This document shows positions 1 to 19,232 of a stretch of 64,000 nt of DNA, in pieces. Origin of the DNA: Chloroflexota bacterium (GTDB lineage: Bacteria; Chloroflexota; Dehalococcoidia; GIF9; UBA5629); the NCBI GenBank assembly GCA_016875875.1, contig VGOP01000002.1:186001-250000 (forward strand). Direction: 5' to 3'. Position numbers and translations under genes: made by a program. Positions within the stretch are counted from its first letter, which is position 1; each line of letters starts with the position of its first letter. The notes beneath the pieces are model-generated. The model was given only the letters and a program-made list of their open reading frames with translations, searched no databases and was not told the origin of the DNA.

Positions 1-584
1 TGCAGAAGCTTTCCTTCCGTGATGTCGCCGGTAATAATCGCTCCGTTGCCGCTGGTGCTCATGACCAGAACCGCCGGTAACTCGGCAATAGCCAAGCGCT
101 CCGTCGTGGTTGAGAACTCGGGGTCGCTGGCGCTCAATGTGAAAGTCCCGACACTTGTATGTCTGGCCTCGATTTTTACTGTGGCGTCGGAAATCCGGTC
201 GGCAAGTGTTTTAGTTGAATCGCCATCACTTCCTGGCAGAACCACGAAAATTAAATCATGGTTAGTGAATATGGCATTGAGCTCTTGGACCCAAGCCAGG
301 TCGCCAATGCCCAGTGTAGATGCGGCATTGCAGACAGTATTGGATGCTATTTGCGGTATGCCACTCTTATCCAATGGGGTGCTTGAAGCATTGATATGCC
401 GCGTTACGATGGAATAGGTTGTCGCACTTATAACCATGAGCATTCCTAAGGCAAAGACGGCAATCTTCCACCATTGTTTCTTGCTCGGTGGTTGCTGCTT
501 AGTACTATCCGCCAGAGACGGACAACATCCCTTTTGGTCGCAACAATCTGCCTTTCGCATCTTTTCAGAGCCTTTATCGCTCAT
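1..584 (-). CDS. Membrane-anchored thioredoxin-fold-like protein, C-terminus cut by window edge
   Basis: An open frame begins at ATG 584, behind a GGAGG ribosome site, and runs off the left edge after 194 codons. The short N-terminus carries two Cys pairs (C14-C15 and C20-C21, CCDQKGCC), a possible soft-metal ligand set. A single transmembrane helix follows (about residues 39-58, rich in AVFALGMLMV). The extracytoplasmic part has alternating strands and an 'ELPAVLVM' segment resembling the cis-Pro strand of thioredoxins, but no CxxC is visible in the part present. It lies 32 nt downstream of arsR2 and probably shares its transcript. The family is not recognised; a role in arsenic handling is inferred only from the neighbours and the Cys pairs. 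Confidence 0.75.
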   Translation of the reverse strand, partial: MSDKGSEKMRKADCCDQKGCCPSLADSTKQQPPSKKQWWKIAVFALGMLMVISATTYSIVTRHINASSTPLDKSGIPQIASNTVCNAASTLGIGDLAWVQELNAIFTNHDLIFVVLPGSDGDSTKTLADRISDATVKIEARHTSVGTFTLSASDPEFSTTTERLAIAELPAVLVMSTSGNGAIITGDITEGKLL

Positions 585-616: not shown

Positions 617-946
617 TCAAACATTGACAGGCTGTTTAAAAAACGTGGCCAGCGAATCAAGCGTCTCGGGGTCGACCCAGCACTCGACGGTCTGTCCACG
701 CCTTTTCATTCTAATCAGGCCTGCTCTGTGGAGTTCTTTTATATGGTGAGAGATTGTTGAAGGCGAAAGACTCAGATTTCTGCCAATCGCCCCTACGCAT
801 TCACGAATGTCAGTATCTGTCTCGCAGGTCTCTCCAGGGGTGCAGCATGAAGCCAGGCGCATGAAAATGCTCAAGCGGTGTGGATTCGACAGCGCCTTGA
901 AGGCGATGGCGAGTCGCTCAGCGTCGGTATTTCGAAAATTCGACAT
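617..946 (-). CDS. arsR: ArsR-family metalloregulator (second copy)
   Basis: This is a 109-residue winged-helix repressor. The DNA-recognition region reads 'LSLSPSTISHHIKEL' (about residues 57-71), followed by the beta wing 'GLIRMKRRGQTVECWV'. Cys residues cluster before the recognition helix ('ASCCTPGETCE', then a further Cys in 'IRECVG') and are the likely As(III)/Sb(III) ligands; the arrangement differs from the CVC motif of the other ArsR at 8060-8419. The length is normal for the family. It has its own consensus promoter (-35 at 978-983, -10 at 954-959) placed so that the transcript should begin at or next to the start codon. It probably represses itself and the downstream membrane protein. 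Confidence 0.93.
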   Translation of the reverse strand: MSNFRNTDAERLAIAFKALSNPHRLSIFMRLASCCTPGETCETDTDIRECVGAIGRNLSLSPSTISHHIKELHRAGLIRMKRRGQTVECWVDPETLDSLATFFKQPVNV

Positions 947-1013: not shown

Positions 1014-2090
1014 TTAGCTCTTATTGTGGTTCGTGGCGAAATATTTTCGCCTAAGGTAGAAAGCCACGTTCACTAGGCTGATGAGTATTGGTACTTCAAG
1101 AAGTGGACCTATGACGGTGGCAAATGCCTCGCCCGAGTCAATGCCAAAAAGGGCAACTGCTACAGCTATGGCCAGCTCGAAATCGTTCGACGCCGCGGTG
1201 AAGGAAACTGCGGTTGCTTTCTGGTAATTAGCCTTTAGTTTGTAGGCAATGAAGAAGGTGAAAAACCACATAAAGAAGAAGTAGATAATAAGCGGCACTG
1301 CTATTCTGGCCACGTCCATGGGCAACTGCACGATGTATTCTCCCTTCAGCGAGAACATGACCACGATGGTGAAAAGCAGCGCTGCTGGCGTTACGAGGCT
1401 CAGCTTAGGCATCAAGGTGTGTTCAAACCATTCTCTGCCCTTCAGTTTTATCATGCCGTACCTGGTGATAATGCCGGCTAGGAAGGGTATTCCCAGGTAA
1501 ATGAACACTGTTTTGGCCGCCTCGGCGATGGATATGCTGGCGTTCACCCCCTCCACAATGCCGAGCTTGCTCAGCAGCACGGATATGAAGATGAATATGT
1601 AAACGGAATAGAAGAGGACCTGGAAGATGGCGTTGAAGGCTACCAGACCAACGGCGTATTCCCTATCACCCTGGGCGAGCTCATTCCAGACTATGACCAT
1701 AGCGATGCAGCGAGCCAGGCCGATAAGGATCACTCCTATCATGTATTCCGGGTAGCCTCTTAGAAAGACAATAGCCAGGACGAACATAAGAATGGGACCA
1801 AAAATCCAGTTCTGGAATAGAGAGAATCCCAGGAATTTGACATCAGAGAATACCTTGTTCATCTCCTCGTATTTCACCTTGGCCAGTGGTGGATACATCA
1901 TGAGAATAAGCCCTATGGCTATAGGAATAGAGGTGGTGCCTACTTGGAAGAAGGTGATGAAGTTAGCCACCCCGGGAACGAAGTAGCCTAGACCTACCCC
2001 TATGCCCATGGCAAGGAATATCCAGAGCGTCAAGAATCTATCTATTATAGAGAGTCTACCAGCTATAGTTTTCGGCCCGGCGTTTTCCAT
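1014..2090 (-). CDS. acr3: Arsenite efflux permease Acr3
   Basis: A 358-residue integral membrane protein of the bile/arsenite/riboflavin transporter superfamily, with about ten hydrophobic segments. The family signature around the essential Cys is present ('[21 protein letters not shown]', of which the core is GLARCIAM), as is the later '[19 protein letters not shown]' region with the conserved Asn-Asp-Phe-Glu. It exports As(III) from the cytosol using the proton-motive force. The gene starts 11 nt after the stop of the corrinoid/Fe-S gene, so it is probably the last gene of the long arsenic transcript; arsR2 downstream has its own promoter. Length is typical of Acr3 proteins. Confidence 0.96.
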
Positions 2091-2101
2091 AGATTATTCT
2101 C

Positions 2102-2935
2102 CTATTCCAGAAGGTTGGCTAAAGCCTTGCGGTTTTCAGTGAACTCAGGCTGGTCTAGGTAAGGACAATCCTCAAGGTGGCATTTCCCTTTTGCTAGGTC
2201 AATGGCGAAGGCAAGGCAGGTCTTTTTGCCGCACTTCTGGCAATCGGTCTGGGGCAGGAGTTTGTGCAGCACCAGCCCCGTGCCCATCTTCGATTTACCC
2301 GGTTCGGTAGCTTGATGTGGCTGATTTAGCTTAGATTCAATTTTATGATATATAGCCGGTTTGGGATATGCCCCCATATCATAGAGCGTGTAGCCCATGA
2401 ATGCTGTGGGAGCCTCCTGATAGCAGCTCCGAACTGCCTCTTCTATCACTTTTGGATTTAATCCGGGGACTTTGGTGTCTCTTTCACCTGGTTGACCCAG
2501 CAGATTGACGATGGTGACTGTTTGCTGGTTAAACCTGTCTATCAGTTTCGTGGGTATGTTGTAAAGAAATGGAGTGAGGGCTTTTGAGCCGATAACGCGT
2601 TTAGTGTCATCGACGCCATTTTGTTTGAGCGCCAGCAGCGCTTCGCCGGGCAAATGGCCGGCTGATTCCCTGCCGCAAAGAACCATGTAGCGGATATTCG
2701 GGTTAGCCACGATATTGCAAATCATCTTCTCTAACCCTATGTTCTCTGTCTGTAGCATGCCGGAAAGAGCCGCCCCTGAGTCTATTCCAGACATTACCAG
2801 TTCATTCAGCTCGGGGGGTATAGCCCAGTCAAAGGTGTCCAGAATGACGCAGACGGCGACGGGAGAATAGTCGTTGCCCCTAAGATAGCGGCCTTCCTCT
2901 GGAGGATAGCCCTCTGGTGGTTTTACCTTGAGCAT
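2102..2935 (-). CDS. MtrA-like corrinoid-binding domain fused to a CFeSP-type 4Fe-4S domain
   Basis: This 277-residue soluble protein has two parts. Residues 1 to about 200 follow subunit A of methanogen tetrahydromethanopterin S-methyltransferase: 'SPVAVCVIL', 'TENIGLEKMICNIVANPNIRYMVLCG', then GHLPGE with His94 at the position of the axial cobalt ligand His84 of methanogen MtrA. The membrane anchor of MtrA is absent. Residues 232-257 hold C-x2-C-x4-C-x16-C, the 4Fe-4S motif of the large subunit of the corrinoid iron-sulfur protein, which reduces inactive Co(II). The protein therefore looks like a self-contained corrinoid methyl carrier with its own reactivation centre. It sits 13 nt after the MauE-TlpA fusion and 11 nt before acr3. 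A role in methyl transfer to or from arsenic is an inference from location. Confidence 0.85.
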   Translation of the reverse strand: MLKVKPPEGYPPEEGRYLRGNDYSPVAVCVILDTFDWAIPPELNELVMSGIDSGAALSGMLQTENIGLEKMICNIVANPNIRYMVLCGRESAGHLPGEALLALKQNGVDDTKRVIGSKALTPFLYNIPTKLIDRFNQQTVTIVNLLGQPGERDTKVPGLNPKVIEEAVRSCYQEAPTAFMGYTLYDMGAYPKPAIYHKIESKLNQPHQATEPGKSKMGTGLVLHKLLPQTDCQKCGKKTCLAFAIDLAKGKCHLEDCPYLDQPEFTENRKALANLLE

Positions 2936-2948
2936 AGCGTACTTATTT

Positions 2949-4670
2949 TCAGGTACCTTTGAGGAAGGTGTTGAAGAGACGTTCCAAATCTTCGGTATTG
3001 CTAAATTCTGGGTCTATAAGCCGAATAATTCCGTCACCATCGATGAGAAAAGTTGTGGGTAAGACGGGCACCTTATAAAGGTCACTCACTACTCCTTCAG
3101 AATCTAAAAGAACGGGAAAAGTCAACCCCGTATCATCAACATACATCTGAATTATCGATTCCTTCACTTTGGGGTGGATAGAGAGTATCGCTATCTTGTC
3201 TGTCGGGATTTTGGCATAAGCCTCTTGAATTATAGACATCTTTTTTCTGCAGGCTGAGCATGACCATAGCCAGAAGTCCAGCATAACTAATTTCCCGCGG
3301 TAATCGCTTAACGTTACAGTTCTACCATCAAGAGAATTGAGGGTGAAATCAGGTGCGGGTTTGCCTGTTTGTCCACTCAGGGCAAGTTCAGGCGAGATTA
3401 CCTGATTGCCACTGACATCTATTGACCTTATCTGGTAATGGTATATGGCATCGACTTCGAGTGAGGTCAGATTGATACTGTGCTGCGTGGTAAGTGTATC
3501 GTTTGATATAGTGTTTCGGTCTTTAGCGCCTGGAATCCAATATTCGACTTTGCTGGTGGCCGGTCTGTTTGTACCCCAGGTTATTGTGGCACTGGAGTCG
3601 ATGAGGGCAGACACTCTAACATAAGAAATTGTAAATTGACTTGGAGCTGGAGCCAGTGTTTTGAACGAGTGCTCTTGCGATAGTGCCTGTTTATCTTCAG
3701 ACAGAATATTAAAGTAGTATGTGGTATCAGGGGAAAGTCCACCGACGAGCATCTGATGAGAATTAACCGGTTTTTTGTTAGTCACAGTAATGACGAAAAT
3801 GTGGTCTTCTGTATATATTTCAATGTTGCTTATTGCTGGCTCATCTGTTGTCCAGGAGATTACCGCACTTGTCTCAGATAGTTCTGAAACAGATATGTCA
3901 GAGGCCACCGGAATCTTTGCTGTGGTATCATTCCCGGGAGCGGCAGTGTGGGTGGATGCTGCGATGGCACCGTATGCAAGCAGGCCAAGAACACATATGC
4001 CGGCAAAAATTGCAATAAGAGGATGCTCTCTAATGCCTTTTCCAATCAGCCTGAAAAATGCCATAACTCTGGCTCCTAGATTTCCTAGTTGCTCACTAAA
4101 TACACGCATTTTTAACCTTACTGTTGCTGCATCAAACTTCTTTCCCTTGCCTAGATTGTCCAGCCATCGTCTGCTGGAAAGGAAACCCGCCGGATGGATG
4201 ATTATTATCAAAATGGCAAGAGCGATAAGTACGAGGTCATAAATAAGGGATTGAACAGGTGTGAGCGACCCGAAATACTTTTCCCAGATGCCAAAGCAAC
4301 TGGCACATGTGGTGTATCCTCCCTGGATAATCGACCAAAGATTTGTTCCTAGAAATGCTAGAAGGAGTGGAATGGTCAGAATAGCCATAAGCCGTGGTAG
4401 GAAACCGACGAGTAGACAAGCTCCTAAAATGAATTCTGCCCAGGGAATGACACGTGGTATAAAAATATCATACATAAAAGAGATAGTGCCCGGGGTTATG
4501 AAGATATCGGGGATGATGTTGCTGATGAAGTCAACAACTTGGGCTGGCGCCTCTTCTGCCGCAATTATTTTGCCTGTCCCCGATGCCAGCAATGTTAGCC
4601 CGATAAGGATACAAGCAATCAAACTTATTTCGCCTCTTACCCGCTCTCGACTTCTCTTAAAAATCGGCAT
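2949..4670 (-). CDS. MauE/DoxX membrane domain - two FN3 domains - TlpA-like thioredoxin fusion
   Basis: A 573-residue redox protein. Residues 15-165 form a four-helix MauE/DoxX-like membrane domain with a C122-A-S-C125-F-G motif. After a linker there is another transmembrane helix (about 217-238). Two fibronectin type III domains follow (about 255-338 and 345-433), each with the W-T/G-T...P...S...Y pattern and a '(Y/H)YF/YQI' strand. Residues 436-573 are a TlpA/AhpC-type thioredoxin beginning 'GKPAPDFTLNSLDG', with active-site C471-S-A-C474 and a 'VLPTTFLID' cis-Pro loop. Topology predicts an extracytoplasmic thioredoxin fed with electrons through the membrane domain, possibly from the ArsG-like CcdA relative encoded 22 nt upstream. 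Exact substrate unknown. Confidence 0.88.
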   Translation of the reverse strand: MPIFKRSRERVRGEISLIACILIGLTLLASGTGKIIAAEEAPAQVVDFISNIIPDIFITPGTISFMYDIFIPRVIPWAEFILGACLLVGFLPRLMAILTIPLLLAFLGTNLWSIIQGGYTTCASCFGIWEKYFGSLTPVQSLIYDLVLIALAILIIIIHPAGFLSSRRWLDNLGKGKKFDAATVRLKMRVFSEQLGNLGARVMAFFRLIGKGIREHPLIAIFAGICVLGLLAYGAIAASTHTAAPGNDTTAKIPVASDISVSELSETSAVISWTTDEPAISNIEIYTEDHIFVITVTNKKPVNSHQMLVGGLSPDTTYYFNILSEDKQALSQEHSFKTLAPAPSQFTISYVRVSALIDSSATITWGTNRPATSKVEYWIPGAKDRNTISNDTLTTQHSINLTSLEVDAIYHYQIRSIDVSGNQVISPELALSGQTGKPAPDFTLNSLDGRTVTLSDYRGKLVMLDFWLWSCSACRKKMSIIQEAYAKIPTDKIAILSIHPKVKESIIQMYVDDTGLTFPVLLDSEGVVSDLYKVPVLPTTFLIDGDGIIRLIDPEFSNTEDLERLFNTFLKGT

Positions 4671-4692: not shown

Positions 4693-5406
4693 TTAATAAT
4701 TTAAAGATTGTATCCATAGTAGTACATAATATATGCCCACACCTATAAAAATCAAGGAAACGATTATGCGAATTATCCGTTCGGCACGGGTAATGGCATT
4801 CAACCAGGTGGCAATTCCGGCTACCCCCAGAGACAAGAGTGTGCCAAATATCAGTACTGGCAAGCCGGTGCCGATGGCATATACCGCAGGCAAAGCCACG
4901 CCACCAGTGGACTCAAGAGCCATAGGTATCAATGCCCCAAAGAATAGCACAGCACTATAGGGGCAAAAAGCTAAGGCAAAGATAATACCCAGCAGGAATC
5001 CGCCTATCATGCCCCAGTCGGCCACTTTTCCTCCTAACGAGGCTAGTTTCCCACCTCCTCGGCCAAAAGAAAACCTGTCGATGGTTAGCATAAGCAAACC
5101 GACTATAATCAGGATTGGACCTAAGATTTGCTCACCGACATCCTGAAGAAATGAAGACACTCCTGGGATTTCGAGGCCAACCACGATGATGAGGACGCCA
5201 AGAACAGAATAAGAGACCATGCGTCCTAAGGTATAGAGGGTGCCGGTTATTACAGCGTACTTGCGGTCTGTCACGTTGCGACTGATGTAGGCTACAGCGG
5301 CGATGTTGGTCGCCATGGGGCAGGGGGCGATGGCGGTTATCAGTCCAAGGAGCAGTGCTGTGAGTACCGGGATATTAGAACTGCCCAAAATGCTGCCTAA
5401 GTCCAT
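4693..5406 (-). CDS. arsG: ArsG-like permease of the CcdA/DsbD membrane family
   Basis: A 237-residue protein with six hydrophobic segments in the CcdA/DsbD transmembrane arrangement. Each half carries a Cys in a proline-flanked motif ('AIAPCPMATN' near residue 28 and 'ALAFCPYSAVLFFG' near 147), typical of the family that moves electrons or substrates across the membrane through a Cys pair. Directly following an arsF-like gene (stop and start overlap by 1 nt), it matches the arrangement of arsEFG loci, where ArsG is reported to export aromatic aminoarsenicals. A plain CcdA electron-transfer role feeding the downstream thioredoxin fusion is the main alternative. Confidence 0.85.
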   Translation of the reverse strand: MDLGSILGSSNIPVLTALLLGLITAIAPCPMATNIAAVAYISRNVTDRKYAVITGTLYTLGRMVSYSVLGVLIIVVGLEIPGVSSFLQDVGEQILGPILIIVGLLMLTIDRFSFGRGGGKLASLGGKVADWGMIGGFLLGIIFALAFCPYSAVLFFGALIPMALESTGGVALPAVYAIGTGLPVLIFGTLLSLGVAGIATWLNAITRAERIIRIIVSLIFIGVGIYYVLLWIQSLNY

Positions 5407-5921
5407 TATTCTACGTCCTTAAGGCTTTGCTCGATGGCGCTCTTGACCTGTTGGTCGAAGCCCGCTTTGTTGGTTCTGCATTTCCAGTACCAGATTTCCT
5501 GTATGTCTCTAATGTGGTCGGTACCATCCTTTACCGTATTTATAAACAATTGTGAGCCAACAGCGCTGTATTTCTTGACGATAGCGGCGTTCTTGCTGTC
5601 CCCGATGTTGTATACTCCAAAAGTCAGCTTGCCGCTTTTCAACTCGTTCTGAAAGTACGTGTTCACAACGTAGATGATGCGCTCTTCGAAGCAGAGGCAG
5701 GTGACACAGCGTTGCGGGCGATGGCAATAGACGACGTCCACCCTTTGATTCTGAAAAGTTGACGGCTCATCAGGCGGCGTAGTCGTTATTTCAGATGGCA
5801 TGGTAGGTTCCTCTGGTGGTGTGGCTGGTGTGGCAGCCTGACTTGAGCAAGCACAAAGCAATCCGACAGCCAGGACAGCGGCTATAGCGAAGCGCAGCTT
5901 GGCTCTAAGTGATATGTTCAT
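5406..5921 (-). CDS. arsF: ArsF-like lipoprotein, putative nitroarsenical reductase subunit
   Basis: A 171-residue protein with an N-terminal lipoprotein signal: positively charged start, hydrophobic stretch and lipobox L-C-A-C with Cys25 as the likely lipidated residue. A Pro/Thr-rich linker (about 28-57) leads to a thioredoxin-like domain with 'YCHRPQRCVTCLCFE' and a final 'YWKC'. These features match the ArsF family, described with ArsE as a reductase of nitrophenyl arsenicals. It is encoded between the small thioredoxin (57 nt upstream) and ArsG (1-nt overlap). The domain is extracytoplasmic, so electrons may come through ArsG or the MauE-TlpA fusion. Function is taken from family resemblance only. 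Confidence 0.82.
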   Translation of the reverse strand: MNISLRAKLRFAIAAVLAVGLLCACSSQAATPATPPEEPTMPSEITTTPPDEPSTFQNQRVDVVYCHRPQRCVTCLCFEERIIYVVNTYFQNELKSGKLTFGVYNIGDSKNAAIVKKYSAVGSQLFINTVKDGTDHIRDIQEIWYWKCRTNKAGFDQQVKSAIEQSLKDVE

Positions 5922-5978: not shown

Positions 5979-6245
5979 TCAAGAGCCCTTTTTCTGCTCT
6001 CCTTTAGCCATGGCATTTATGATTAACTGCGTGACCTCTGCTTTTGAAGGCACCTTACCGCTACTGACCACCTGTTCATTGATCACCAAGCCAGGTGTGG
6101 TCAGGATGTTATAAGCTATGATTTTGCTCATGTCTTTGATCTCTTCCACAGTGGCGTCAATGCCGAGTTCTTTAACTGCCTCCCTGGCGGTCTTTTCCAA
6201 CTCGTAGCACCTGGCGCATCCCGGCCCTAGGACCTTTATGTTCAT
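5979..6245 (-). CDS. Small thioredoxin-family redox protein, ArsE-like
   Basis: An 88-residue cytosolic protein of the small redox-active disulfide protein 2/glutaredoxin-like family. The active site C-A-R-C lies at residues 10-13 ('GPGCARCYELEK'), and the cis-Pro strand is 'TTPGLVINEQVV'. The length and absence of a signal peptide are typical. An AGGAGG-type site precedes the ATG. It lies 36 nt after arsP and before arsF, the place occupied by the small thioredoxin partner ArsE in arsEFG loci. It probably supplies thiol electrons for arsenical reduction; a general thiol oxidoreductase is the fallback. Confidence 0.88.
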   Translation of the reverse strand: MNIKVLGPGCARCYELEKTAREAVKELGIDATVEEIKDMSKIIAYNILTTPGLVINEQVVSSGKVPSKAEVTQLIINAMAKGEQKKGS

Positions 6246-6281: not shown

Positions 6282-7346
6282 TCATAGACTGGTAACAAAA
6301 CCGTATATCAGTCCGGCGGCGGTGCAGCAGACTGTTATGATACCGACGTACCAGAAGAGCCTCTTGGTGCCAATGAACTGTCTGACGACCAGAATGCTGG
6401 GCAGGGAGATCACCGGGTCGGCCAGCAGGTAGGCCAGGAGAACCCCCTTTCCCATGCCCAGGTCTAGGAACATCCGCGCCATTGGTACCTCCACTAGGGT
6501 TGGGAAGTACATGAAGACTCCGAACAGGACCGCCGCTAATGTCGCCCCCACCGTTGAGCTTCCGAAGTAGCGACCGATGAAATCTGCTGGTATGACTACC
6601 CGGAGCATGCCGGCCACAAAAACGCCGACCAGCAGCAGGGGAAGAATTTGGCGGACAAAGAACCATGTCTCCCGCATCCACCTCATCACATCGTCTCGGC
6701 TTAATGTGTGCCTGACTACGAGCACAAGCCCTGTTAGGAGCAGGACAAGCCCAATCAATTTCACCGTAAGCGTTATCAGAGATGAAGCTCCCCAGAGCAG
6801 GATGGCAACCAGAAGGGCGAAGAATACCCAGAGCCAGTTTGAGACTTTGCTCTTCTCGTTCATGGCGAAGGCTTGAGCAGGTGGGTCATCAGCCGCTTTT
6901 TCAGGCTTCTTGTCAGAGAACAGAGCGGCCATGCTGATGCCGATGATGACGGCAAAACTGATGGACAGGATGATGCGGGCAAGGGCAAAATCAATGCCAA
7001 TAAGACTTGCGGTGTAGATGATGGCCAGTATATTGGTAGCCGGGGCGGTATAAAGAAAGGCAATTGCTGGTCCAAGGCCGGCCCCGCTACGCCTTATTCC
7101 CGCAAACAGGGGTAGGATGGTGCAGGAGCAAACAGCCAGGCACAGCCCAGCCACAACCGACATAGGATACGAAATATACTTGGGTGAGTTTGGTCCGAGA
7201 TAACGGAGTATTTTCTCCTTAGGGAAAAGCGCATAGACAGCGCCGGCGATAAAGAAAGCCGGCACCAAGCAGGTCAGGGTGTGGGCAAGGATGTAGTCCT
7301 GGAGGGCAGCCACGCCACCTTTAAGAAGCTCAATAACTAACGACAT
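6282..7346 (-). CDS. arsP: ArsP-type permease (organoarsenical efflux)
   Basis: A 354-residue membrane protein of the DUF318/ArsP_1 permease family, with about eight hydrophobic segments in two groups separated by a charged loop (about 148-168). The first half carries the family's Cys-rich motif 'CLAVCSCTILPLFAGI' and 'AFLYTAPATNILAI'; the second half carries 'FPTLVEVPMARMFLDLGM' and 'LLADPVISLPSI'. Characterised ArsP proteins export trivalent methylarsenite and trivalent aromatic arsenicals. Its place between an ArsR/SCP2 pair and arsE/F/G-like genes fits organoarsenical detoxification. The start 18 nt after the previous stop indicates co-transcription. Confidence 0.9.
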   Translation of the reverse strand: MSLVIELLKGGVAALQDYILAHTLTCLVPAFFIAGAVYALFPKEKILRYLGPNSPKYISYPMSVVAGLCLAVCSCTILPLFAGIRRSGAGLGPAIAFLYTAPATNILAIIYTASLIGIDFALARIILSISFAVIIGISMAALFSDKKPEKAADDPPAQAFAMNEKSKVSNWLWVFFALLVAILLWGASSLITLTVKLIGLVLLLTGLVLVVRHTLSRDDVMRWMRETWFFVRQILPLLLVGVFVAGMLRVVIPADFIGRYFGSSTVGATLAAVLFGVFMYFPTLVEVPMARMFLDLGMGKGVLLAYLLADPVISLPSILVVRQFIGTKRLFWYVGIITVCCTAAGLIYGFVTSL

Positions 7347-7363: not shown

Positions 7364-7987
7364 CTAGTTGACCGGAACTTCAGCGAATACTTCAGTTACC
7401 AGCGTTACCACTGGTTTCATGCGTAGAATCATATATGATAGAGCGACTTCGCGCCTCAAGGCGACTTTAAGCTTCAATTTGCCGGTTATTCTCAATCTGA
7501 TGACATCCTGTTTGCCTGAAGCCATCAGCTTCCAGGTGCTGTAATTCCCGGAAAGCTTAAAAATTGCGTCTTCGTGTTCACCAGGAGCCACAGGCATCAG
7601 GTCTCTGAGAGCGCCATCCCGGAAATCTGCCCAGATGTGCATTCGTATATCTCTTATCTCGTCTGCAGATAACTTTGAGGCTTTATTCAACACTTTATCT
7701 ATATTCAACTCTCTAACAGAGGCGTCTAGCGGAATCCCCAGGCTTTCAAGAATCTTGCCTGTAGGTGCATCCTTATACTTTTTTCGTGCCTCCGGAGGCA
7801 TTATATCCATCAAGCTCATGAAACCTTCCACGATTTCTTTTTTGTTTAACTCTCTTAGGAGTTCCTCGTCGCCCTCGACTGTACACAGAAAATCACCGTG
7901 CCAATCCTTTGCCGCCTCTTTATTCTTATTTTGCTTTGCGGCCTCTAAAACCGCCTTAACCCATTCCTTTGACGGAAACACCACCAT
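7364..7987 (-). CDS. SCP2-like (sterol carrier fold) protein
   Basis: A 207-residue soluble protein opening with 'FPSKEWVKAVLEAA', then a charged acidic region and a C-terminal half resembling SCP2 lipid-binding domains ('AIFKLSGNYSTWKLMASGKQD' and 'ITGKLKLKVAL'). No catalytic motif is seen. The ATG at 7987 has an AAGGAG site upstream. It is the first gene after arsR1, with a palindrome resembling the arsR1 operator in its leader (8024-8037), so it may be arsenic-regulated. SCP2-like proteins bind hydrophobic ligands; binding of an arsenolipid or aromatic arsenical is possible but speculative. Confidence 0.75.
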   Translation of the reverse strand: MVVFPSKEWVKAVLEAAKQNKNKEAAKDWHGDFLCTVEGDEELLRELNKKEIVEGFMSLMDIMPPEARKKYKDAPTGKILESLGIPLDASVRELNIDKVLNKASKLSADEIRDIRMHIWADFRDGALRDLMPVAPGEHEDAIFKLSGNYSTWKLMASGKQDVIRLRITGKLKLKVALRREVALSYMILRMKPVVTLVTEVFAEVPVN

Positions 7988-8059: not shown

Positions 8060-8419
8060 TTAGTTGGGTGTTCCAACTACACAACCAGGGCCTATTCTTT
8101 GGGCGTTCCTCAGCCTTTTTCTATCCTGCAGGGCTGTTTCATTTCCCTCAAGCGCTTTGTTGACAGCCTCGATCAGGTCCGCATAGTGCTCTTTTAGGCC
8201 TTCTTTATCTATGGAATACAGTGCCCATAGCCCGAGGCGCCTGAGCTTCAAGAATCCGGCATCGTAGAGGGCACTCAGGTTTCGAGAGGCACGGGACTCG
8301 GAGATATTGAGCGCCTGCATCACCTCGCAGACGCAGCACTCCCGCTCCAATAACAGGTTGAGAATCCTCAGTCTGGTCTCGTCGGAAAGGGCCTTAAAAG
8401 CCTTTACTAACTCTCGCAT
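8060..8419 (-). CDS. arsR: ArsR-family arsenic-responsive repressor (first copy)
   Basis: A 119-residue winged-helix regulator. The classical As(III) site is present as 'ECCVCEVMQAL' (about residues 27-37) at the start of the recognition region, then 'ISESRASRNLSALYDAGFLKLRR'. The frame is open for 12 more codons upstream to 8455, but that upstream ATG lies inside the operator and at the transcription start. The start at 8419 (MRELVKAFKALSDETRLRIL) is therefore chosen; it matches the family's usual N-terminus. The C-terminal tail (about 88-119) is longer than usual and charged. It heads the arsenic island and probably autoregulates through the palindrome at 8438-8457. Confidence 0.93.
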   Translation of the reverse strand: MRELVKAFKALSDETRLRILNLLLERECCVCEVMQALNISESRASRNLSALYDAGFLKLRRLGLWALYSIDKEGLKEHYADLIEAVNKALEGNETALQDRKRLRNAQRIGPGCVVGTPN

Positions 8420-8437
8420 TTCTGAACCTCTGTCCCT

Positions 8438-8484
8438 ATATGCGCATTTATGCATATAGTACTACAGGAGAGTTATCTTGTCAA
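8438..8484 (-). promoter_or_regulatory. arsR1 promoter with overlapping ArsR operator
   Basis: On the minus strand TTGACA (8479-8484) and TACTAT (8456-8461) are 17 nt apart. An inverted repeat ATATGC-N8-GCATAT (8438-8457) covers the end of the -10 box and the expected transcription start near 8450. This is the placement expected for a steric ArsR/SmtB operator. Confidence 0.75.
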
Positions 8485-11001: not shown

Positions 11002-12027
11002 CTATTTTCGCTTACTGCGTGCAGTACTTAGTTTGGGAGATTTAGCCTTTACTACCTGCTTTGTTTTTTGCTGCTTGCCTTTTGTTTTTGTTGCGGCCTT
11101 TTTTGTGGCTCGCTTTATCTTTACCGACCGAGTCGACTTTGCAGTCACCCTTGCCACCGCAAAGGGTTTCTGGAATGTAACCTTATCCTCTTCAGCTTCT
11201 TTAGAAGGCGTTGTTACTACTGCGTCATCCTTAAACAGAGGTCGTTTATCTAGCGGCATTTTTGCCTCATTAGCTTTAGTCCATTTTACCGCTTTCTGGT
11301 TATAGGGTTTCTCGAAACCATAGACTCGGTAGGTAATCATGTCTGCCAGGTGTGTAACCAGCCAGGCTATATCCAGAGAACTTTCCCAGTCTCGTTCTAT
11401 ACCGATGCAGACCATGTTGTTTTCCGGGCTGATATTGGGATGAAAATGGGGGGTGAGACACAGGACATAGGGTGCTTCGTTGGGATAACCAGGTATACCG
11501 GCTGGCAGATAAATCTCCATGATGTGGTTTGCCGTCAGGGTTGGCTTCTCGCTGGCAGGATTAAGCATTATGCCTTTGTATTTAAAAGTGACGCGGTATT
11601 TTGTGGGCGGGTCGCCCTCTATAGATTCAACCTCGATAAGGTCAGATTTGGCAGCTAGCTCCTTGAGCCATTCATGTTCTTGTTGCAGCCGCTTTTGTAA
11701 GTCGATTGTTTGTGTTTTCACGCCCGGCTGTATGAAATAGCACAGAACCAGTATCTCATTTTCAACGACACCGACTGAGGCTAGAGTCTGCCACGGGTGA
11801 AGCGTTAAGTATCGGGAGACCCCACCTCTTCTTAAATAGCGTCCCTCGGGATTCCGGTATAATTGCTCACCGGTCTTCTGAAGATAAGCGACCATTTGCC
11901 TCCCAGGTCCCCGCTCCTTAACTATTTGCGGTGTAATTTGCGAGAGCAGCCTTCCAACCGTGGCATTTTCGGAGACTAATGCCGGATAATAGCGGTCATG
12001 GGTGAAATCCCAGATGTATACTCTCAT
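11002..12027 (-). CDS. E2 ubiquitin-conjugating enzyme-like protein with N-terminal ubiquitin-like domain
   Basis: A 341-residue protein. Residues about 115-240 follow the E2/UBC fold: 'IMEIYLPAGIPGYPNEAPYV', the HPN motif (H196-P197-N198), and Cys207 nine residues later in 'NNMVCIG'. A Trp in 'RDWESSLDIAWLVTHLADMI' matches the conserved helix after the active site. Residues 1-102 resemble a ubiquitin-like beta-grasp domain: an opening strand, a helix near 24-37, and a final 'TLASVGVVENEILVLCYF' strand, but without a terminal GG. Residues 296-341 are an unusually Lys/Arg-rich tail. AAGGAGGTGG precedes the ATG. It follows the RING-like gene by 38 nt. It should accept a ubiquitin-like protein from the E1 at 12972-14168; the Ubl assignment is weaker than the E2 call. 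Confidence 0.88.
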   Translation of the reverse strand: MRVYIWDFTHDRYYPALVSENATVGRLLSQITPQIVKERGPGRQMVAYLQKTGEQLYRNPEGRYLRRGGVSRYLTLHPWQTLASVGVVENEILVLCYFIQPGVKTQTIDLQKRLQQEHEWLKELAAKSDLIEVESIEGDPPTKYRVTFKYKGIMLNPASEKPTLTANHIMEIYLPAGIPGYPNEAPYVLCLTPHFHPNISPENNMVCIGIERDWESSLDIAWLVTHLADMITYRVYGFEKPYNQKAVKWTKANEAKMPLDKRPLFKDDAVVTTPSKEAEEDKVTFQKPFAVARVTAKSTRSVKIKRATKKAATKTKGKQQKTKQVVKAKSPKLSTARSKRK

Positions 12028-12065
12028 TTAAGCCACCTCCTTCATTTATGTTGCTGGCTGAATTA

Positions 12066-12371
12066 TCAGGCCTCTTCTTTTGCCTTTTCCCCGAGTGGTG
12101 CCAGAGGGCACTCCCATGTGGTGCAGCCTCCATATTCCATCCAGCATGACCGGTGATGCACTGTGCCACACTTGGGGCAGGTGAAAGAAGGGTTTTTACT
12201 GCTGTATTCTTGTTTGCCGCACCAGAGGCAAGGTGTCTCCTCCACGTTTTTTTTAACTATCTCTTGGCTTGCTGGCTTGGCCTTGGTGTATCGCCGACGC
12301 ATTGTGTACAGGACTATGAAACCAATAACAAAGCCGGCTATGCATAGGGTGAGGACAAGCAATACCGTCAC
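12066..12371 (-). CDS. Membrane-anchored RING-like zinc-finger protein (E3 candidate)
   Basis: A 101-residue protein: an N-terminal transmembrane helix (about 3-23), a basic stop-transfer segment (RRRYTK), then a cytosolic treble-clef/RING-like finger. Zinc ligands are C48-x2-C51, C65-x2-C68, H72/H73, C76, C83 and C88, close to the prokaryotic RING families. It starts with GTG. It is encoded 17 nt after the zinc-ribbon membrane protein and 38 nt before the E2, the position expected for an E3 partner. A ubiquitin-ligase role is an inference from fold and neighbours; a non-catalytic zinc adaptor is possible. Confidence 0.8.
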   Translation of the reverse strand: MTVLLVLTLCIAGFVIGFIVLYTMRRRYTKAKPASQEIVKKNVEETPCLWCGKQEYSSKNPSFTCPKCGTVHHRSCWMEYGGCTTWECPLAPLGEKAKEEA

Positions 12372-12388
12372 GACTTCAACACCCCGCC

Positions 12389-12958
12389 TTATGCTACCTT
12401 ATGGCTCTCGTAAGCCCGATTGTATTTGCCAACGCTGGCATTAGCATCTATGACTTGCCAGACAAACAGGAAAATGTAGGCGATGGCTAGTATGGCAATC
12501 AAGGCGATGTAGGCGGATTCCATGTAGTAGTAATATGTAACGGCGCAGGCTATCAAACCACCAATGAGCGCCAACCCGGCAAAGAGAATGAGAAAACCTA
12601 TGGCTATTCTGCCCAGAATTATGTGTCCTAGGCCATGCAATCCGAAAATGCCGGGGATTACAGCCAGAGCCATGACTGTGTTCCCTGAGACACGGCTGTC
12701 GGGTATATGGATGTCACAGTATTGACACACTCTGGCATTCATATCTATTTCTTTTCCGTGCTCATGGCACATCCTTTTACGCCCATAGCGTTCCTCCCGC
12801 TCTGTGACTGCTGCTGCAGGCCCTACGGCTAATTCGCCGGCGATGACTTCTTCCTTGGTATACTTTCCGCAAGCCTTGCATTTGAAGTCGGCATTGTAGT
12901 CGGTAACAGGACCACAGCTAGGGCATAGACGGACTAGTCTTACCTCCAACTCTTCCAT
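12389..12958 (-). CDS. Zinc-ribbon multi-pass membrane protein
   Basis: A 189-residue protein. Residues 12-30 form a zinc ribbon (C12-x2-C15, C27-x2-C30), and a second Cys/His set follows (C64, H65, H67 region, C78-x2-C81). Three hydrophobic segments (about 95-115, 117-140 and 147-170) resemble TM2-type domains, including 'GLHGLGHIILGRIAIGFLIL'. GAAAGGAGG precedes the ATG. It is encoded 13 nt after the E1 gene and 17 nt before the RING-like gene. It is probably a membrane platform or substrate receptor for the conjugation enzymes; no catalytic residues are seen and no specific family is recognised beyond zinc-ribbon/TM2 likeness. Confidence 0.8.
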   Translation of the reverse strand: MEELEVRLVRLCPSCGPVTDYNADFKCKACGKYTKEEVIAGELAVGPAAAVTEREERYGRKRMCHEHGKEIDMNARVCQYCDIHIPDSRVSGNTVMALAVIPGIFGLHGLGHIILGRIAIGFLILFAGLALIGGLIACAVTYYYYMESAYIALIAILAIAYIFLFVWQVIDANASVGKYNRAYESHKVA

Positions 12959-12971
12959 AGTGAACCTCCTT

Positions 12972-14168
12972 TCATGTGAAATTTAATACTTTATCCCTGT
13001 CCGCGTCAAGTTCAAAGTGGGCCACTGACGCCATATTCCTTGCCGTGATAACGTGGAACGGCGGCACTTGCCCCTGGGACAAAGTCTTGTCCAGAATCCA
13101 TGGTGTAGCTTTGCTGATAGTGGATGTCATATCTGGCTGCATGAGTTTTTTGCATTTTGGACATCTTAGCTTGTCTGAGCTAAGTTTGTCGAGTCGTTTC
13201 AGAATCTGCCTAGAGTGACCGCAAGTGCAAGTCGCTCTGAAAACCAGGTCAAAATCCAGTTGTATAACTGCCCCGGAACCAAGTTTCTCTTCGGCCATAT
13301 TCAACAGTTCCCCGAAAGTGCTGTCGGCAGCGCCCCTTGCAGTACTAATAACGGATTTGAATTGATTATGGTTTAGGCATCTTTCGTTGAGGGGAAAGTT
13401 AGCCGGCAAAAACTCATTGGTCAACCCGTTGAAAACAAGGCCGCTGCCGCCGGTAATCTCATGCCCGTGGGTAAGTTTAAGAGCTTCCTGGACCTGGAGC
13501 CCGCCGATAATGGAGGCGATGGTGGGTGTTGTCGGGACTCTTCCCTGTTCTAGCTCCTCAATCGGTAGCAGGCAGGATAGGCGGCGTTTCATTTCCTTGT
13601 AGGCTTCCTTTGGTAGATTGCATTCGTAGCAGGCACCTTCACCGGGTATATAGACGTGGAATTCTCCAATCAGTTCCTGTATGCCGCCGTTAATCCAGGG
13701 CGTGCCCACCTTGAAGCAGGCGCGGTTGATAAAAATCCTAGCGCCGAAATTGTCCACTCCAACCAGAATGACATCCATATTGCGGAAGATGCCGAGGCCG
13801 ACATCGCTAGTGATATCACCACAAATGTAGGAAGCCTTGACATCCGGATTCAGCTCCTTCAGTCGCTGGGCAGCTACCTTGGCCTTTAGTTTACCGATGT
13901 CCTCAGCCCGGAACAGGACAGAGCGGGTAAGGTTGGCAGCTTCAACGACGTCAAAGTCAATTATAAGTATGCGGCCGGTGCCGACCAGTGCCAGGTTTTT
14001 CAGGATTTCGTTTCCTAAAGCTCCAGCACCGACTACCATCACCTTGGCCTTGGCCACCTTTTCCTGTTGCCACCAGGAAATCAATCTAAGAGTGTCGTAG
14101 CGACCCTGAATGGGGTCTGGAGTATGGCTAGGGTGTGAAGAAGCGTTCTGATTCTTCATCATATTCAT
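12972..14168 (-). CDS. E1-like ubiquitin-activating enzyme (ThiF/UBA family)
   Basis: A 398-residue adenylating enzyme. Residues 43-66 carry the nucleotide loop GAGALG. They are followed by 'DFDVVEAANLTRSVLF', the D-I-G-K-x-K-A helix and 'LNPDV', all standard for E1/ThiF/MoeB. C180-x2-C183 is a half zinc site. C199 in 'RRLSCLLP', upstream of 'PTTPTIASIIGGLQVQEALKL', is the candidate catalytic Cys. Unlike MoeB or ThiF, there is a roughly 130-residue C-terminal extension with a second zinc site (C314-x-C316, C336-x2-C339) and an end resembling an E1 ubiquitin-fold domain. The reading frame overlaps the JAMM gene by 41 nt. It should adenylate the Ubl C-terminus and load the E2. Confidence 0.9.
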   Translation of the reverse strand: MNMMKNQNASSHPSHTPDPIQGRYDTLRLISWWQQEKVAKAKVMVVGAGALGNEILKNLALVGTGRILIIDFDVVEAANLTRSVLFRAEDIGKLKAKVAAQRLKELNPDVKASYICGDITSDVGLGIFRNMDVILVGVDNFGARIFINRACFKVGTPWINGGIQELIGEFHVYIPGEGACYECNLPKEAYKEMKRRLSCLLPIEELEQGRVPTTPTIASIIGGLQVQEALKLTHGHEITGGSGLVFNGLTNEFLPANFPLNERCLNHNQFKSVISTARGAADSTFGELLNMAEEKLGSGAVIQLDFDLVFRATCTCGHSRQILKRLDKLSSDKLRCPKCKKLMQPDMTSTISKATPWILDKTLSQGQVPPFHVITARNMASVAHFELDADRDKVLNFT

Positions 14169-15789
14169 CGGTAGTTGAGTTTAAATTTTTGACCTTAAAG
14201 ACTAAGTTCTCACTGATTCCACTTCTTATTGTCTTGGATTTAAGGTGGAATACAAATTCAAATTCTCCGTTAGGCTTTAGTTCTTGAGCTTCGGGTGACT
14301 CCAAAATGGCAAACACTGCGCTGGAATCGATTGAAACCTCAACCATACCAGAACTATCTCCTCTATTCTGTACCAGAACTAAAACCTTCTCGCCCTCCCG
14401 TGAAATTTTCCCATCATCGTTTTCATCTTTTACAGAAATAATCTTGAAGCTCGGCAGTTTCTGCTCTGGTTTGGCCAACGGTTCGGTCACCGGAACGACT
14501 GTAACAAAAATGATAACCTCCTCAGTCTTTTTGTCACTATTGTAGCTAAAGAGCATTTTGTCTAGGTGGTCTCCCGGGCTGAGATCACTGCGCTTCGCCG
14601 TAACATTGATAGTAGCATTACCGACTCCAGATTCTTTATCCACCTTTATCCAGTCCGGTTTAGATGAGACGAGCCAGGAGAGGTTTCCGCTGCCGGTGAA
14701 TGATAACTGTAGAGGCATTGTATCTTTGGCTGCGCCAAAGAGCAAATACTTCTCAGAGACGGAGAGTGAGATGCCGGCTGTTGGTGTTGCGCTCGTCTCT
14801 GTCTTTCGCCACTCTGTAAGCTCACCGGTATTGATGATATATGCACTCAGAGTCCAAGGCTTCCCAGTTCCATCATTAGCTTGCAATTCCAAGGCGCCGA
14901 TGTTGTTACCACTATTCTCTTGTGGATTAGCTGTTGGCTGTTCCACAATTTCTTTCAAGGTGATGGGCAAGGATTTTTCTTTAGTCCAGGGCTTTTCCTT
15001 GTTCAGTGTATAACGCCAAACCTCGCCGTTATTTTGAATGAAATAATAGTTATATACCTCCCCTTTCTCTTCGTTACGGAATGGGACAGCAGCTACTGGA
15101 AAATCCTTGAATGGTGGTTGGCTTGCCTCCTTCTGTCCTCCTGGTAACCAGACGGTAAAGGCAAGTCCTATGATGATAAACAGAGCCACAAAAAGCGCCA
15201 AAGCCGGTATAAGGAAAGCAGGCATCTTCCTTTGCGGTGGTGCCATTTTCTCTGGCTGAAGTAATGGTTCTGGCTCATTAGACAGGACTTCATAGGTGTA
15301 GAAACCTTTGATCGCCTTTATTTCTGAGCTATCCCAACCGAAAAAGCTGAGCTCGTTTTTTATGGGGTCACATACAGCAGCCACATGCCACGGGTGTGAG
15401 AAAGCAACGCGATGGGAATTTACGTCATCATCGGACATGAAGGCGCCGAATCCGGGATGAGTGTGGTACCAGCCGACAACTTTCTGGTTGGGATAGTTTC
15501 TCTGAGCTGATTCTACGAGCTGTAGCCAGACCTCATGGGTGAACTGCGCCTGGGTTTGATTCCCGGGAGCAGAATCCGATTTAACAATGCCGACGATGTC
15601 AACCCGATATTTGCCAGTGCTATCTTCGGAGACATTGCCCAGAAGGATACCGACTATCTCTCGTTGAGGATTGGCTGCACCGTGGCGATAAATGGCGTCG
15701 TAAGCTTGCTTCTCTATGTAGATAACAACCTTGCTATCTTCAGGGCTTCCCCAGACCTTCAAGCTCGCCTTGCCGCTGATTCTGTTCAT
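14128..15789 (-). CDS. JAMM/MPN isopeptidase with transmembrane helix and extracellular BACON/CARDB-like domains
   Basis: A 553-residue protein. Residues 18-170 are a JAB1/MPN domain with a complete metalloprotease set: E44, H109-x-H111, S119 and D122 (H-x-H-x7-S-x2-D). This predicts a zinc deubiquitinase-type isopeptidase, and with no signal peptide the domain is cytosolic. A transmembrane helix (about 190-215) is followed by a large outside part: a beta-rich region (225-335), a BACON-like domain (about 340-433, with 'WLVSSKPDWIKVDKESG') and a CARDB/Ig-like domain (about 447-535). The start overlaps the previous stop (ATGA). The architecture resembles a receptor that could sense outside signals and control de-conjugation inside. 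Confidence 0.9.
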   Translation of the reverse strand: MNRISGKASLKVWGSPEDSKVVIYIEKQAYDAIYRHGAANPQREIVGILLGNVSEDSTGKYRVDIVGIVKSDSAPGNQTQAQFTHEVWLQLVESAQRNYPNQKVVGWYHTHPGFGAFMSDDDVNSHRVAFSHPWHVAAVCDPIKNELSFFGWDSSEIKAIKGFYTYEVLSNEPEPLLQPEKMAPPQRKMPAFLIPALALFVALFIIIGLAFTVWLPGGQKEASQPPFKDFPVAAVPFRNEEKGEVYNYYFIQNNGEVWRYTLNKEKPWTKEKSLPITLKEIVEQPTANPQENSGNNIGALELQANDGTGKPWTLSAYIINTGELTEWRKTETSATPTAGISLSVSEKYLLFGAAKDTMPLQLSFTGSGNLSWLVSSKPDWIKVDKESGVGNATINVTAKRSDLSPGDHLDKMLFSYNSDKKTEEVIIFVTVVPVTEPLAKPEQKLPSFKIISVKDENDDGKISREGEKVLVLVQNRGDSSGMVEVSIDSSAVFAILESPEAQELKPNGEFEFVFHLKSKTIRSGISENLVFKVKNLNSTTDEYDEESERFFTP

Positions 15790-17482: not shown

Positions 17483-18265
17483 CTACGTGTTTAAGTTTGA
17501 GGTTCTGGCGGTTACGGCGGCGCCTAGGGCGGTGATGATTTGGGGTTGTGGGGGCACAAGGGGCTGTATATTCAATTCCTGCTCTACAGTCTTGACGAGG
17601 CCGGTATTGAGCGCGCCACCACCGCAGAGGGCGCATGGCTCCTCCAGCTTAATCTTCTTGACCAGCGATGAAATCTTGCTGGCTAAGGCTTTGTTGACCC
17701 CGGCGGCGATGTCCTCCTTTGGGATACCTTCGGTGACTCTGGTGATGGCCTCTGATTCGCCGAAGACAGCGCAACCGGTGCCGAAGGTGATTGGGTTTTT
17801 GGACTTAAGCGAAAGCGGGCCGAAATCTTTTAAATCTATTCGCAGTACGTTGGCAATGACTTCGATAAACCGGCCACTTCCGGCAGCGCATTTTTCGCTG
17901 ACGGTGAAATTGGTCACCATTCCCTGTTCATTTATCCGTATTACTTTGGTAGACTGTCCCGCCACCTCGATTGCTGTTTTGACCTGGGGAAAGATGCTAT
18001 TTATGCCTCTGGCAGTGCAGACTATGTCACTGACTTGTCGGCTGGCGAAAGCCACGTTGTTGGCGCCGCTGCCAGTGGCTACAGTATCGGCTATATCATC
18101 TTGACTCAGCTTAAGCTGTCTCAGAAGCTCCTGCCTTATCGTCTCTGCCGCTGTCTGGTAATTGGCTCCGGAAGGAATCACGCGGTAAGCGGCAAGCTCG
18201 GAATCTCTGATTATGACTCCTTTACTATATGCCGAGCCGATGTCTATGCCCATAAACCACATCAT
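17483..18265 (-). CDS. BadF/BcrA-type activator ATPase (second, BcrD-like copy)
   Basis: A 260-residue ASKHA-fold ATPase that activates 2-hydroxyacyl-CoA dehydratases or acts as an ATPase subunit of class I benzoyl-CoA reductase. It hydrolyses ATP to drive low-potential electron transfer. Phosphate-binding motifs 'GIDIGSAYSKGVII' and 'DIVCTARGINSIFP' are present, with the Cys ligands in 'EKCAAGSGRFIEV' and 'GTGCAVFGESEA' that bridge a 4Fe-4S cluster in the dimer. The frame is open to a TTG at 18277 inside a family C repeat arm; ATG 18265 is chosen as it begins the conserved N-terminus. It is the last gene of the four-gene group and is shorter than the paralogue upstream. Confidence 0.88.
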   Translation of the reverse strand: MMWFMGIDIGSAYSKGVIIRDSELAAYRVIPSGANYQTAAETIRQELLRQLKLSQDDIADTVATGSGANNVAFASRQVSDIVCTARGINSIFPQVKTAIEVAGQSTKVIRINEQGMVTNFTVSEKCAAGSGRFIEVIANVLRIDLKDFGPLSLKSKNPITFGTGCAVFGESEAITRVTEGIPKEDIAAGVNKALASKISSLVKKIKLEEPCALCGGGALNTGLVKTVEQELNIQPLVPPQPQIITALGAAVTARTSNLNT

Positions 18266-18277
18266 ATTAAAAATCAA

Positions 18278-18338
18278 AAACCAAAAATCAAAATGACAGG
18301 TAAAAATGCAAAAATGTTTTAATCACTTTTATATTTTA
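18278..18338. repeat. Family C AT-rich repeat arm
   Basis: Contains CAAAATGACAGGTAAAAATG followed by CAAAAATG, shared with other C copies. It lies between the two activator genes. Confidence 0.7.
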
Positions 18339-19232
18339 TTGTTGAAAGAAGGTAGCCTTTTCCAGGCGACGAGGCTTTGTTGGGATGGGCTCGCCCTCTG
18401 CCGTTGCTTTCATATAGATTTCCTTTGCCAGTATGGCAGCCCCAAGCGCCCCAGTTAGTAGTGGCTCTTCAGGGACGAGGATTTCGCAGCCCAAACTCTC
18501 TTTCATCGCCTTAACCATGCCGATGTTCTTGGCCACGCCACCGGTGAGCACTACATCGGGTTCTATCTTCAGCCGCCGTGCCAGTGCTGCCACCCGGCTG
18601 GCCAGCGCATCGTGGAGCCCAGCTATGATATCTTCCAGCTTTTCCCCGCGGGATAGCAGTGCTACCACCTCCTGCTGAGCGAAGATGGTGCATAGGTTGC
18701 TGATCTGGATTTTCTTGGTAGATTTCAATGCGATGTCTCCCATGTCTTCCAGCCTGATACCCAAAGTGGCAGCGGTGACTTCTAGGAACCTGCCGGTTCC
18801 GGCAGCGCATTTATCGTTCATGACGAAGTCGACCAGCTTACCTTTCTCTGTCTTCATACACTTGGCGTCCTGTCCGCCGATATCTATGGCAGTCCTGACG
18901 TTGGGAAACAAACTGGAGACGCCTCTGGCATGGCAGGAAAGCTCTGTTATCTGGTCGTCAGCAAAAGGGACATTCACCCGCCCGTAGCCCGTGGCTACGA
19001 TGTAGGAGATGTCGCCGAGCTGCAAATCGGCTTGCTCCAGTGCCATTCTCATGACCTCGTTGGCTAGCTGGCGATGCTCAGGTCCAGTAGGGCCTTTTAT
19101 GGCAGACAATATCCTGTCAGCTGTGTCCGTGAGCACCACCTTGGTCATGGTGGAACCTATGTCTACGCCAGCGAAATACAAGTTGACCTCTGGAGAAATG
19201 TTCTTAGCGGATTGTCTCAAGGAAGGCCTCAA
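18336..19232 (-). CDS. BadF/BcrA-type activator ATPase (first copy)
   Basis: A 298-residue activator ATPase with the canonical motifs 'GVDIGSTMTKVVLTD', 'DIGGQDAKCMK', 'NDKCAAGTGRFLEV' and 'NLCTIFAQQEV'. The two Cys (in KCAAGTG and NLCTIF) are the expected 4Fe-4S ligands. The 'DIGGQDAK' motif is intact here but altered in the paralogue at 17483 (DIEVAGQSTK-like), so the two are not interchangeable. The upstream ATG overlaps the preceding dehydratase gene by 29 nt; a TTG with an AGAGGT site about 14 codons later is an alternative start. Together with the dehydratase genes it would form an ATP-driven reductase or dehydratase system in the cytosol. Confidence 0.9.
   Translation of the reverse strand: MRPSLRQSAKNISPEVNLYFAGVDIGSTMTKVVLTDTADRILSAIKGPTGPEHRQLANEVMRMALEQADLQLGDISYIVATGYGRVNVPFADDQITELSCHARGVSSLFPNVRTAIDIGGQDAKCMKTEKGKLVDFVMNDKCAAGTGRFLEVTAATLGIRLEDMGDIALKSTKKIQISNLCTIFAQQEVVALLSRGEKLEDIIAGLHDALASRVAALARRLKIEPDVVLTGGVAKNIGMVKAMKESLGCEILVPEEPLLTGALGAAILAKEIYMKATAEGEPIPTKPRRLEKATFFQQ

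Follow-up and report, generated by a model that had tools for sequence, protein, structure and literature searches.

An arsenic-operon protein of Dehalococcoidia joining an MtrA-type corrinoid domain to a CFeSP-type 4Fe-4S domain: a candidate methyl carrier at arsenic

Described corrinoid and arsenic systems

In flooded paddy soil methylarsenicals are formed, which are harmful to rice and serve as antibiotics between microbes. Under aerobic conditions the methyl group of these arsenicals is removed by ArsI. For anoxic soil, methylotrophic methanogens have been reported to demethylate methylarsenicals in paddies; the authors suggest corrinoid transfer, and the available portions of these reports name no gene for the anaerobic reaction (PMC6776024, PMC10579292). 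More generally, demethylation in anoxic soil is observed without a gene being named for it in the available portions of the literature searched.

Here we describe a protein, termed MtrA-FeS, that is encoded in a 64,000-nucleotide stretch (the window) of a Dehalococcoidia genome and resembles several known systems in part. MtrA of the Mtr complex and its soluble homologues (PF04208; 5l8x, 5laa) have the fold, the His ligand and the cobalamin-contact residues in common with it. Unlike MtrA of the complex, however, MtrA-FeS has no transmembrane anchor, belongs to a separate clade (100/99) and is found in a host without the Mtr complex, where it lies in an ars operon and carries a fused Fe-S domain as well as a clade-specific Cys171 and C-terminal region. 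The large subunit of the corrinoid iron-sulfur protein CFeSP (AcsC/CdhE) has the same 4Fe-4S spacing and likewise places corrinoid and Fe-S on one chain, but there the Fe-S domain is N-terminal rather than C-terminal, the corrinoid domain is a TIM barrel/Rossmann pair rather than of the MtrA type, and the gene belongs to the CODH/ACS cluster, outside which the MtrA-FeS gene is found.

Another parallel is HgcAB, which combines a corrinoid with low-potential Fe-S to act on a toxic element, as MtrA-FeS may do on arsenic, and which also has ars neighbours (PMC7438021). MtrA-FeS lacks three features of HgcA, namely its membrane part, its NVWCAAGK motif and a corrinoid domain of the CFeSP type; when all loci and the window were scanned for the motif, only genes of Methanoregula matched. 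In these Methanoregula loci (L078, L090, L091; e.g. L078:12924-14358), HgcA is encoded ~3 kb or less from an ars-linked MtrA and Acr3 and is preceded by an AbrB-like gene; in L078 it matches PF03599 and an HgcB-like 2[4Fe-4S] gene follows directly. As for arsenic enzymes proper, the SAM methyltransferase ArsM is encoded in arsenic operons like MtrA-FeS and would have methyl chemistry in common with it, on an unrelated fold and cofactor. The C-As lyase ArsI carries out the same net reaction that we propose for MtrA-FeS, methylarsenical to As(III), but is an O2-dependent VOC dioxygenase.

The fusion protein and its predicted cofactor site

Pfam assigns residues 3-148 of MtrA-FeS to MtrA (PF04208; E 3e-37, 128 bits against a cutoff of 25) and residues 227-259 to FeS (PF04060; E 7e-12). 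A profile built from five two-domain proteins matched the MtrA chains in the PDB over residues 2-145 (5laa, E 5e-37; 5l8x, E 7e-33; also 8q3v), and its match over residues 219-262 was to the N-terminal end of the large CFeSP subunit (2h9a, E 1.5e-10). The AlphaFold2 model, built on 61 homologues, has a mean pLDDT of 90.5 and a single weak stretch, the interdomain linker at residues 204-217 (pLDDT <50). Aligned with VIA-align, the first domain of the model superimposes on M. jannaschii MtrA (5l8x_A) with an rmsd of 1.0 A over 169 residues, and the second on the CFeSP FeS domain (9fzy_F) with 1.1 A over 54 residues. The original prediction of an MtrA-like domain fused to a CFeSP-type 4Fe-4S domain is thus confirmed by Pfam, PDB profile and model alike, on the minus strand (Table 1). 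The protein falls below the equivalog cutoff of the canonical Mtr subunit A (TIGR01111; 118.6 bits vs 249), and Pfam finds no match in it to the CdhD/CFeSP corrinoid domain PF03599; the genome's CFeSP genes are separate.

Table 1. Features of the MtrA-FeS gene and its arsenic operon, in window coordinates
Feature	Position	Strand	Evidence
MtrA-FeS fusion protein, 277 aa, subject of this report	2102..2935	-	Pfam MtrA + FeS; profile vs PDB; AF2 model
MtrA-fold corrinoid domain, residues 1-200	2336..2935	-	VIA Z 28.2 to 5l8x_A; conservation
His94 codon (predicted cobalt ligand)	2654-2656	-	conservation
Cys171 codon (invariant, clade-specific)	2423-2425	-	conservation
CFeSP-type 4Fe-4S domain, residues 218-277, Cys232/235/240/257	2105..2284	-	VIA Z 9.5 to 9fzy_F
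ArsR/SmtB-type regulator (first), operon head	8060..8455	-	NF033788 79.5 bits, cutoff 55
SCP2-domain protein	7364..7987	-	PF02036 above cutoff
ArsP-family permease (PF03773)	6282..7346	-	E 1.2e-71
ArsE/MTH895-type small thioredoxin-like protein	5979..6245	-	TIGR00412 103 bits, cutoff 62
ArsF-family lipoprotein	5406..5921	-	NF040494 85 bits, cutoff 60
ArsG-family DsbD-like permease	4693..5406	-	NF040495 272 bits, cutoff 200
MauE/DoxX-like membrane domain + FN3 + ResA/TlpA-type thioredoxin domain	2949..4670	-	PF07291, PF00041, PF00578
Acr3 arsenite efflux permease	1014..2090	-	TIGR00832 450.8 bits, cutoff 282.8
ArsR/SmtB-type regulator (second)	617..946	-	NF033788 above cutoff
217-aa membrane/thioredoxin-like gene, start only, runs past window edge	6..584	-	no Pfam match

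The cysteines of the second domain follow the pattern C232-x2-C235-x4-C240-x16-C257, and the spacing, recognised as that of CFeSP in the original prediction, exactly matches the CFeSP large subunit encoded in this genome. Among the 106 ORFs of 100 aa or more in the window, only one has this pattern, and when residues 206-277 were shuffled 20,000 times it came up twice; all four cysteines are invariant in the two-domain homologues (18/18).

The cobalamin contacts of MtrA are the cobalt ligand His84, its hydrogen-bond partner Glu54, and Thr53, Asn55, Gly57 and Asn64 (Wagner 2016, PMC4915002). In the same order these align with His94, Glu64, Thr63, Asn65, Gly67 and Asn74 here. Glu64 is present in 18/18 two-domain proteins and 31 of 43 stand-alone relatives, and the other five residues are invariant in all 61 homologues, which bears out the earlier equation of His94 with the cobalt-ligand His84. 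From the retained ligand and cofactor-site residues, MtrA-FeS is predicted to hold a cobamide. Cys171 is also invariant across the ars clade (61/61) and is missing from the canonical MtrA rows; an equivalent is present in the ArsM-linked MtrA of Methanosarcina, a comparison for which the protein of locus L046 was used in place of the window protein. Although invariant, Cys171 is positioned at the end of the domain's last helix, and we do not claim it as an arsenic site.

The arsenic operon and the distribution of the family

On the minus strand, the gene order is ArsR, SCP2, ArsP, ArsE, ArsF, ArsG, MauE/FN3/ResA, MtrA-FeS, Acr3 and a second ArsR. Gaps of 11 bp and 13 bp separate the MtrA-FeS gene from acr3 downstream and from the MauE/FN3/ResA redox gene upstream, respectively. 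After the membrane gene at the window edge, the run continues with genes for a DsbD-like protein and a CARDB lipoprotein, followed by an arsM-type gene (G000:C2:183532-184359), in the same directon as MtrA-FeS and 1.6 kb outside the window. The profile matches of the neighbours agree with the initial description of a gene lying between acr3 and redox genes in an arsenic operon. ArsP is described as a family for organoarsenicals (PMC4435449), and PMC10190100 cites a title that describes ArsEFG likewise.

Elsewhere in the window, a bacterial ubiquitin-like set, made up of consecutive E2-like (UQ_con), E1/ThiF-like and JAB-domain genes together with a zinc-ribbon membrane protein, is found on the minus strand at 11002-15789. 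Two BcrAD/BadFG ATPase genes are located at 17483-19232, with homologues in L054:1-3886. In L054, BcrAD/HGD-D ATPase genes adjoin MtrA-FeS, and we considered them as an ATP-driven reactivator; they are retained as a lead only, and the adjacency may reflect local synteny, since a 79% identical copy is found ~15 kb away in the window. A RACo-type reactivator was likewise dismissed as a constant partner, being present in 6 of 12 genomes and not in the window's own.

Scanning a single genome for each species gathered 77 loci. A 100/99 branch sets the ars-linked MtrA proteins, along with close relatives, apart from canonical and DUF4346 MtrA, and within this group the two-domain proteins form a single clade (support 100/97); the CFeSP-type fusion therefore arose once. 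Two-domain proteins were found in Dehalococcoidia/Chloroflexota and in three deltaproteobacterial genomes, whereas the stand-alone relatives, of ~230 aa, come from methanogens, ANME, Bathyarchaeota, Spirochaetes, Aerophobetes and others. No relatives were found on viral contigs, and plasmids yielded distant DUF4346-type proteins only, with no two-domain protein.

The original prediction would have been undermined by homologues lying mostly beside Wood-Ljungdahl or other one-carbon genes, and the opposite was seen. At least one of acr3, arsP and arsM is present within 6 kb of 20/20 two-domain loci and 29/50 stand-alone relatives, as against 0/7 control loci, which encode MtrA of the DUF4346 type and come from the same phylum. 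Acr3 is encoded in 18 of the 20 two-domain loci, the remaining two being interrupted by contig ends, and in 14 of these 18 acr3 is within 100 bp of the two-domain gene. The two-domain genomes have one MtrA each, sited in the ars operon. With the genome's own Wood-Ljungdahl cluster and a Methanosarcina Mtr cluster as seeds, no two-domain locus was found to have a Wood-Ljungdahl or Mtr gene within 6 kb. Since it recurs in every two-domain locus found, the arsenic setting is far beyond chance, and the arsenic link of the two-domain family is conserved and clade-wide. The proposed pairing of a corrinoid with a built-in low-potential Fe-S centre on one chain is thus not only supported but dedicated to arsenic operons. 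The 21 stand-alone relatives with no acr3, arsP or arsM within 6 kb are partly on short contigs, and those checked have housekeeping neighbours, not one-carbon genes.

Several other genes recur in these neighbourhoods. A DUF169 (COG2043) gene is found by ars-linked MtrA in L035:4907-5512, L067:9245-9991, L076, L085 and L087, directly adjoining it in L035 and L067, and is a candidate partner. A separate protein of 180-189 aa, in which an FeS domain of the CFeSP type is accompanied by an N-terminal domain not described before, is encoded within the same ars operons as MtrA-FeS (L053:6732-7274, L055:3432-4001, L056:6952-7497), and a short relative of it precedes MtrA-FeS in L046. In Methanomicrobiales, a DUF166 gene is located near ars-linked MtrA (L091:8256-8942, L078, L090, L102, L108); the window's genome has a DUF166 homologue in its own CODH/ACS cluster. 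In L114 (9746-9943) a remnant of MtrA-FeS, its first 58 residues, is found in an otherwise complete ars operon, and the contig continues.

The CFeSP-type module is not the only one joined to this corrinoid domain. An N-terminal 2[4Fe-4S] ferredoxin is fused to MtrA in L062, L082 and L115, of a Bathyarchaeota/Thorarchaeota group, and partial versions are found in L099 and L120. Because two unlike Fe-S modules have been fused to the same domain, low-potential electron delivery appears to matter to it, and these archaeal fusions support the idea of reductive reactivation. In ANME/Alkanophaga-type archaea (L063:9992-10864; L064, L065, L076), the MtrA domain is followed by a C-terminal winged-helix-like domain (HTH_20, E 2.5e-8 in L063), possibly making a corrinoid- or arsenic-sensing regulator. 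Finally, a Methanosarcina locus (L184:1406-9365) has the run arsR-acr3-hydantoinase-like ASKHA protein-arsD-arsA-arsM-mtrA, in which a soluble MtrA is encoded ~230 bp after arsM. This MtrA is on the canonical side of the tree, on a long branch; if this placement holds, there were at least two recruitments of MtrA to arsenic.

ArsM was detected in all ten two-domain genomes tested (E <= 1e-20, most far lower) and in 16 of 27 genomes with stand-alone relatives. In a 294-genome sample of the class, at E <= 1e-60, it is present in 8/8 two-domain genomes vs 124/286 others (43%), with a Fisher p of 0.0015 that is a guide only because the genomes are related. ArsI (NF041414) is absent from 12/12 two-domain genomes searched, whereas it was recovered from Bacillus subtilis as a control. 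The suggestion that the fusion is an alternative to ArsM did not hold up: the two co-occur, across these genomes and in the window's own directon, so MtrA-FeS is not an ArsM substitute. It acts beside ArsM, in cells that are able to methylate arsenic but have no aerobic demethylase.

Proposed role, alternatives and significance

The folds, cofactor-site residues and ars context make it probable that MtrA-FeS performs methyl chemistry at arsenic in one direction or the other. Sequence alone cannot separate the two directions. Methyl removal is the more likely, being the most useful reaction for an anaerobe given the adjacent Acr3, the organoarsenical transport and reduction genes upstream and the presence of ArsM. 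We tentatively favor MtrA-FeS as a demethylase of methylarsenicals, an anaerobic counterpart of ArsI. It would be a cytosolic corrinoid methyl carrier belonging to the ars operon, with the cobamide bound base-off in the MtrA domain and His94 on the cobalt. The flexibly tethered 4Fe-4S domain would supply a low-potential electron to return the occasional oxidised Co(II) to Co(I), which could accept a methyl group from a methylarsenical produced by the cell's own ArsM or by its neighbours. The resulting inorganic As(III) would be exported by the Acr3 encoded next door, and methyl-Co(III) might be unloaded into the folate/Wood-Ljungdahl pool by general corrinoid methyltransferases of the cell. 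As a possible methyl sink, CFeSP and pterin-binding enzymes are present in 10/10 two-domain genomes.

Several considerations count against demethylation. The two-domain operons have no dedicated methyltransferase partner: none of the MtrH, MtaA or MeTr type was found among the 25 commonest Pfam families, and none by homology to the genome's Wood-Ljungdahl cluster or the Methanosarcina Mtr cluster. Having ArsM and a demethylase in one cell risks a futile cycle; Nostoc is a precedent for such a combination (PMC5258700). Also, no acr3, arsP or arsM lies within 6 kb in 21 of the 50 stand-alone cases.

The chemistry could run in the opposite direction, which we regard as a less probable but serious alternative. 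Here methyl-Co(III) MtrA-FeS would methylate As(III) or methylarsenite, and the product would exit via ArsP, which the operon encodes. The methyl source would be methyl-folate or, as for HgcAB, SAM, with ArsM and MtrA-FeS each taking one methylation step. This direction is chemically easier to show, since methylcobalamin, arsenite and GSH give monomethylarsenic with no enzyme needed (PMC2801198). It also has a model in HgcAB, a corrinoid pair that methylates mercury with SAM as the donor (PMC11588087), whose genes are frequently near ars genes (PMC7438021) and lie beside ars-linked MtrA in Methanoregula. However, every two-domain genome tested already has ArsM, and the adjacent product transporter is Acr3, which serves arsenite.

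Somewhat more doubtful is a sensor, chaperone or redox protein, in which the corrinoid or Cys171 would bind As(III) or MAs(III) and the protein would deliver, report or reduce the arsenical with no methyl transfer. The abundance of thiol redox proteins in the operon is consistent with this, as are the winged-helix domain that replaces the Fe-S domain in some ANME relatives and the conservation of Cys171 in the ars clade and the ArsM-linked Methanosarcina MtrA. Yet all members keep a complete cobalamin site and its His ligand, beyond what a chaperone needs, and the added low-potential Fe-S domain is better suited to Co(I) chemistry.

That MtrA-FeS is a general one-carbon carrier, beside ars genes by chance, is improbable: MtrA is a one-carbon protein of methanogens and many stand-alone relatives are found away from ars genes, but the ars link spans two-domain loci of several families and extends to both archaea and bacteria, and neither the two-domain loci nor the checked non-ars loci have one-carbon neighbours. 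Least credible of all is a degenerate MtrA that has lost cobamide binding, given how closely the model follows MtrA and the conservation of His94 and the cobalamin contacts (Glu64 excepted in some stand-alone relatives).

Our search found no paper linking the MtrA-FeS family to arsenic in the searchable literature, which mostly excludes subscription papers and is thus weak proof of novelty; this is apparently an undescribed, widespread ars gene family. One immediate consequence is for annotation, where its genes are labelled as subunits of a methanogenesis enzyme in hosts that do not have that enzyme complex. More broadly, we give about even chances to a B12-dependent arsenic methyl cycle, in which C-As bonds are formed or cleaved in anaerobes by a family of corrinoid carriers that has repeatedly acquired low-potential Fe-S modules, either by fusion or as partners. 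For the anaerobic demethylation gene, the ars-linked corrinoid protein found in many anaerobes, archaeal and bacterial, is a concrete candidate. If the proposal is true, the anaerobic removal of methyl groups from methylarsenicals would gain its missing gene, and B12 methyl chemistry would handle arsenic in addition to mercury, with the MtrA-FeS family being to arsenic what HgcAB is to mercury.
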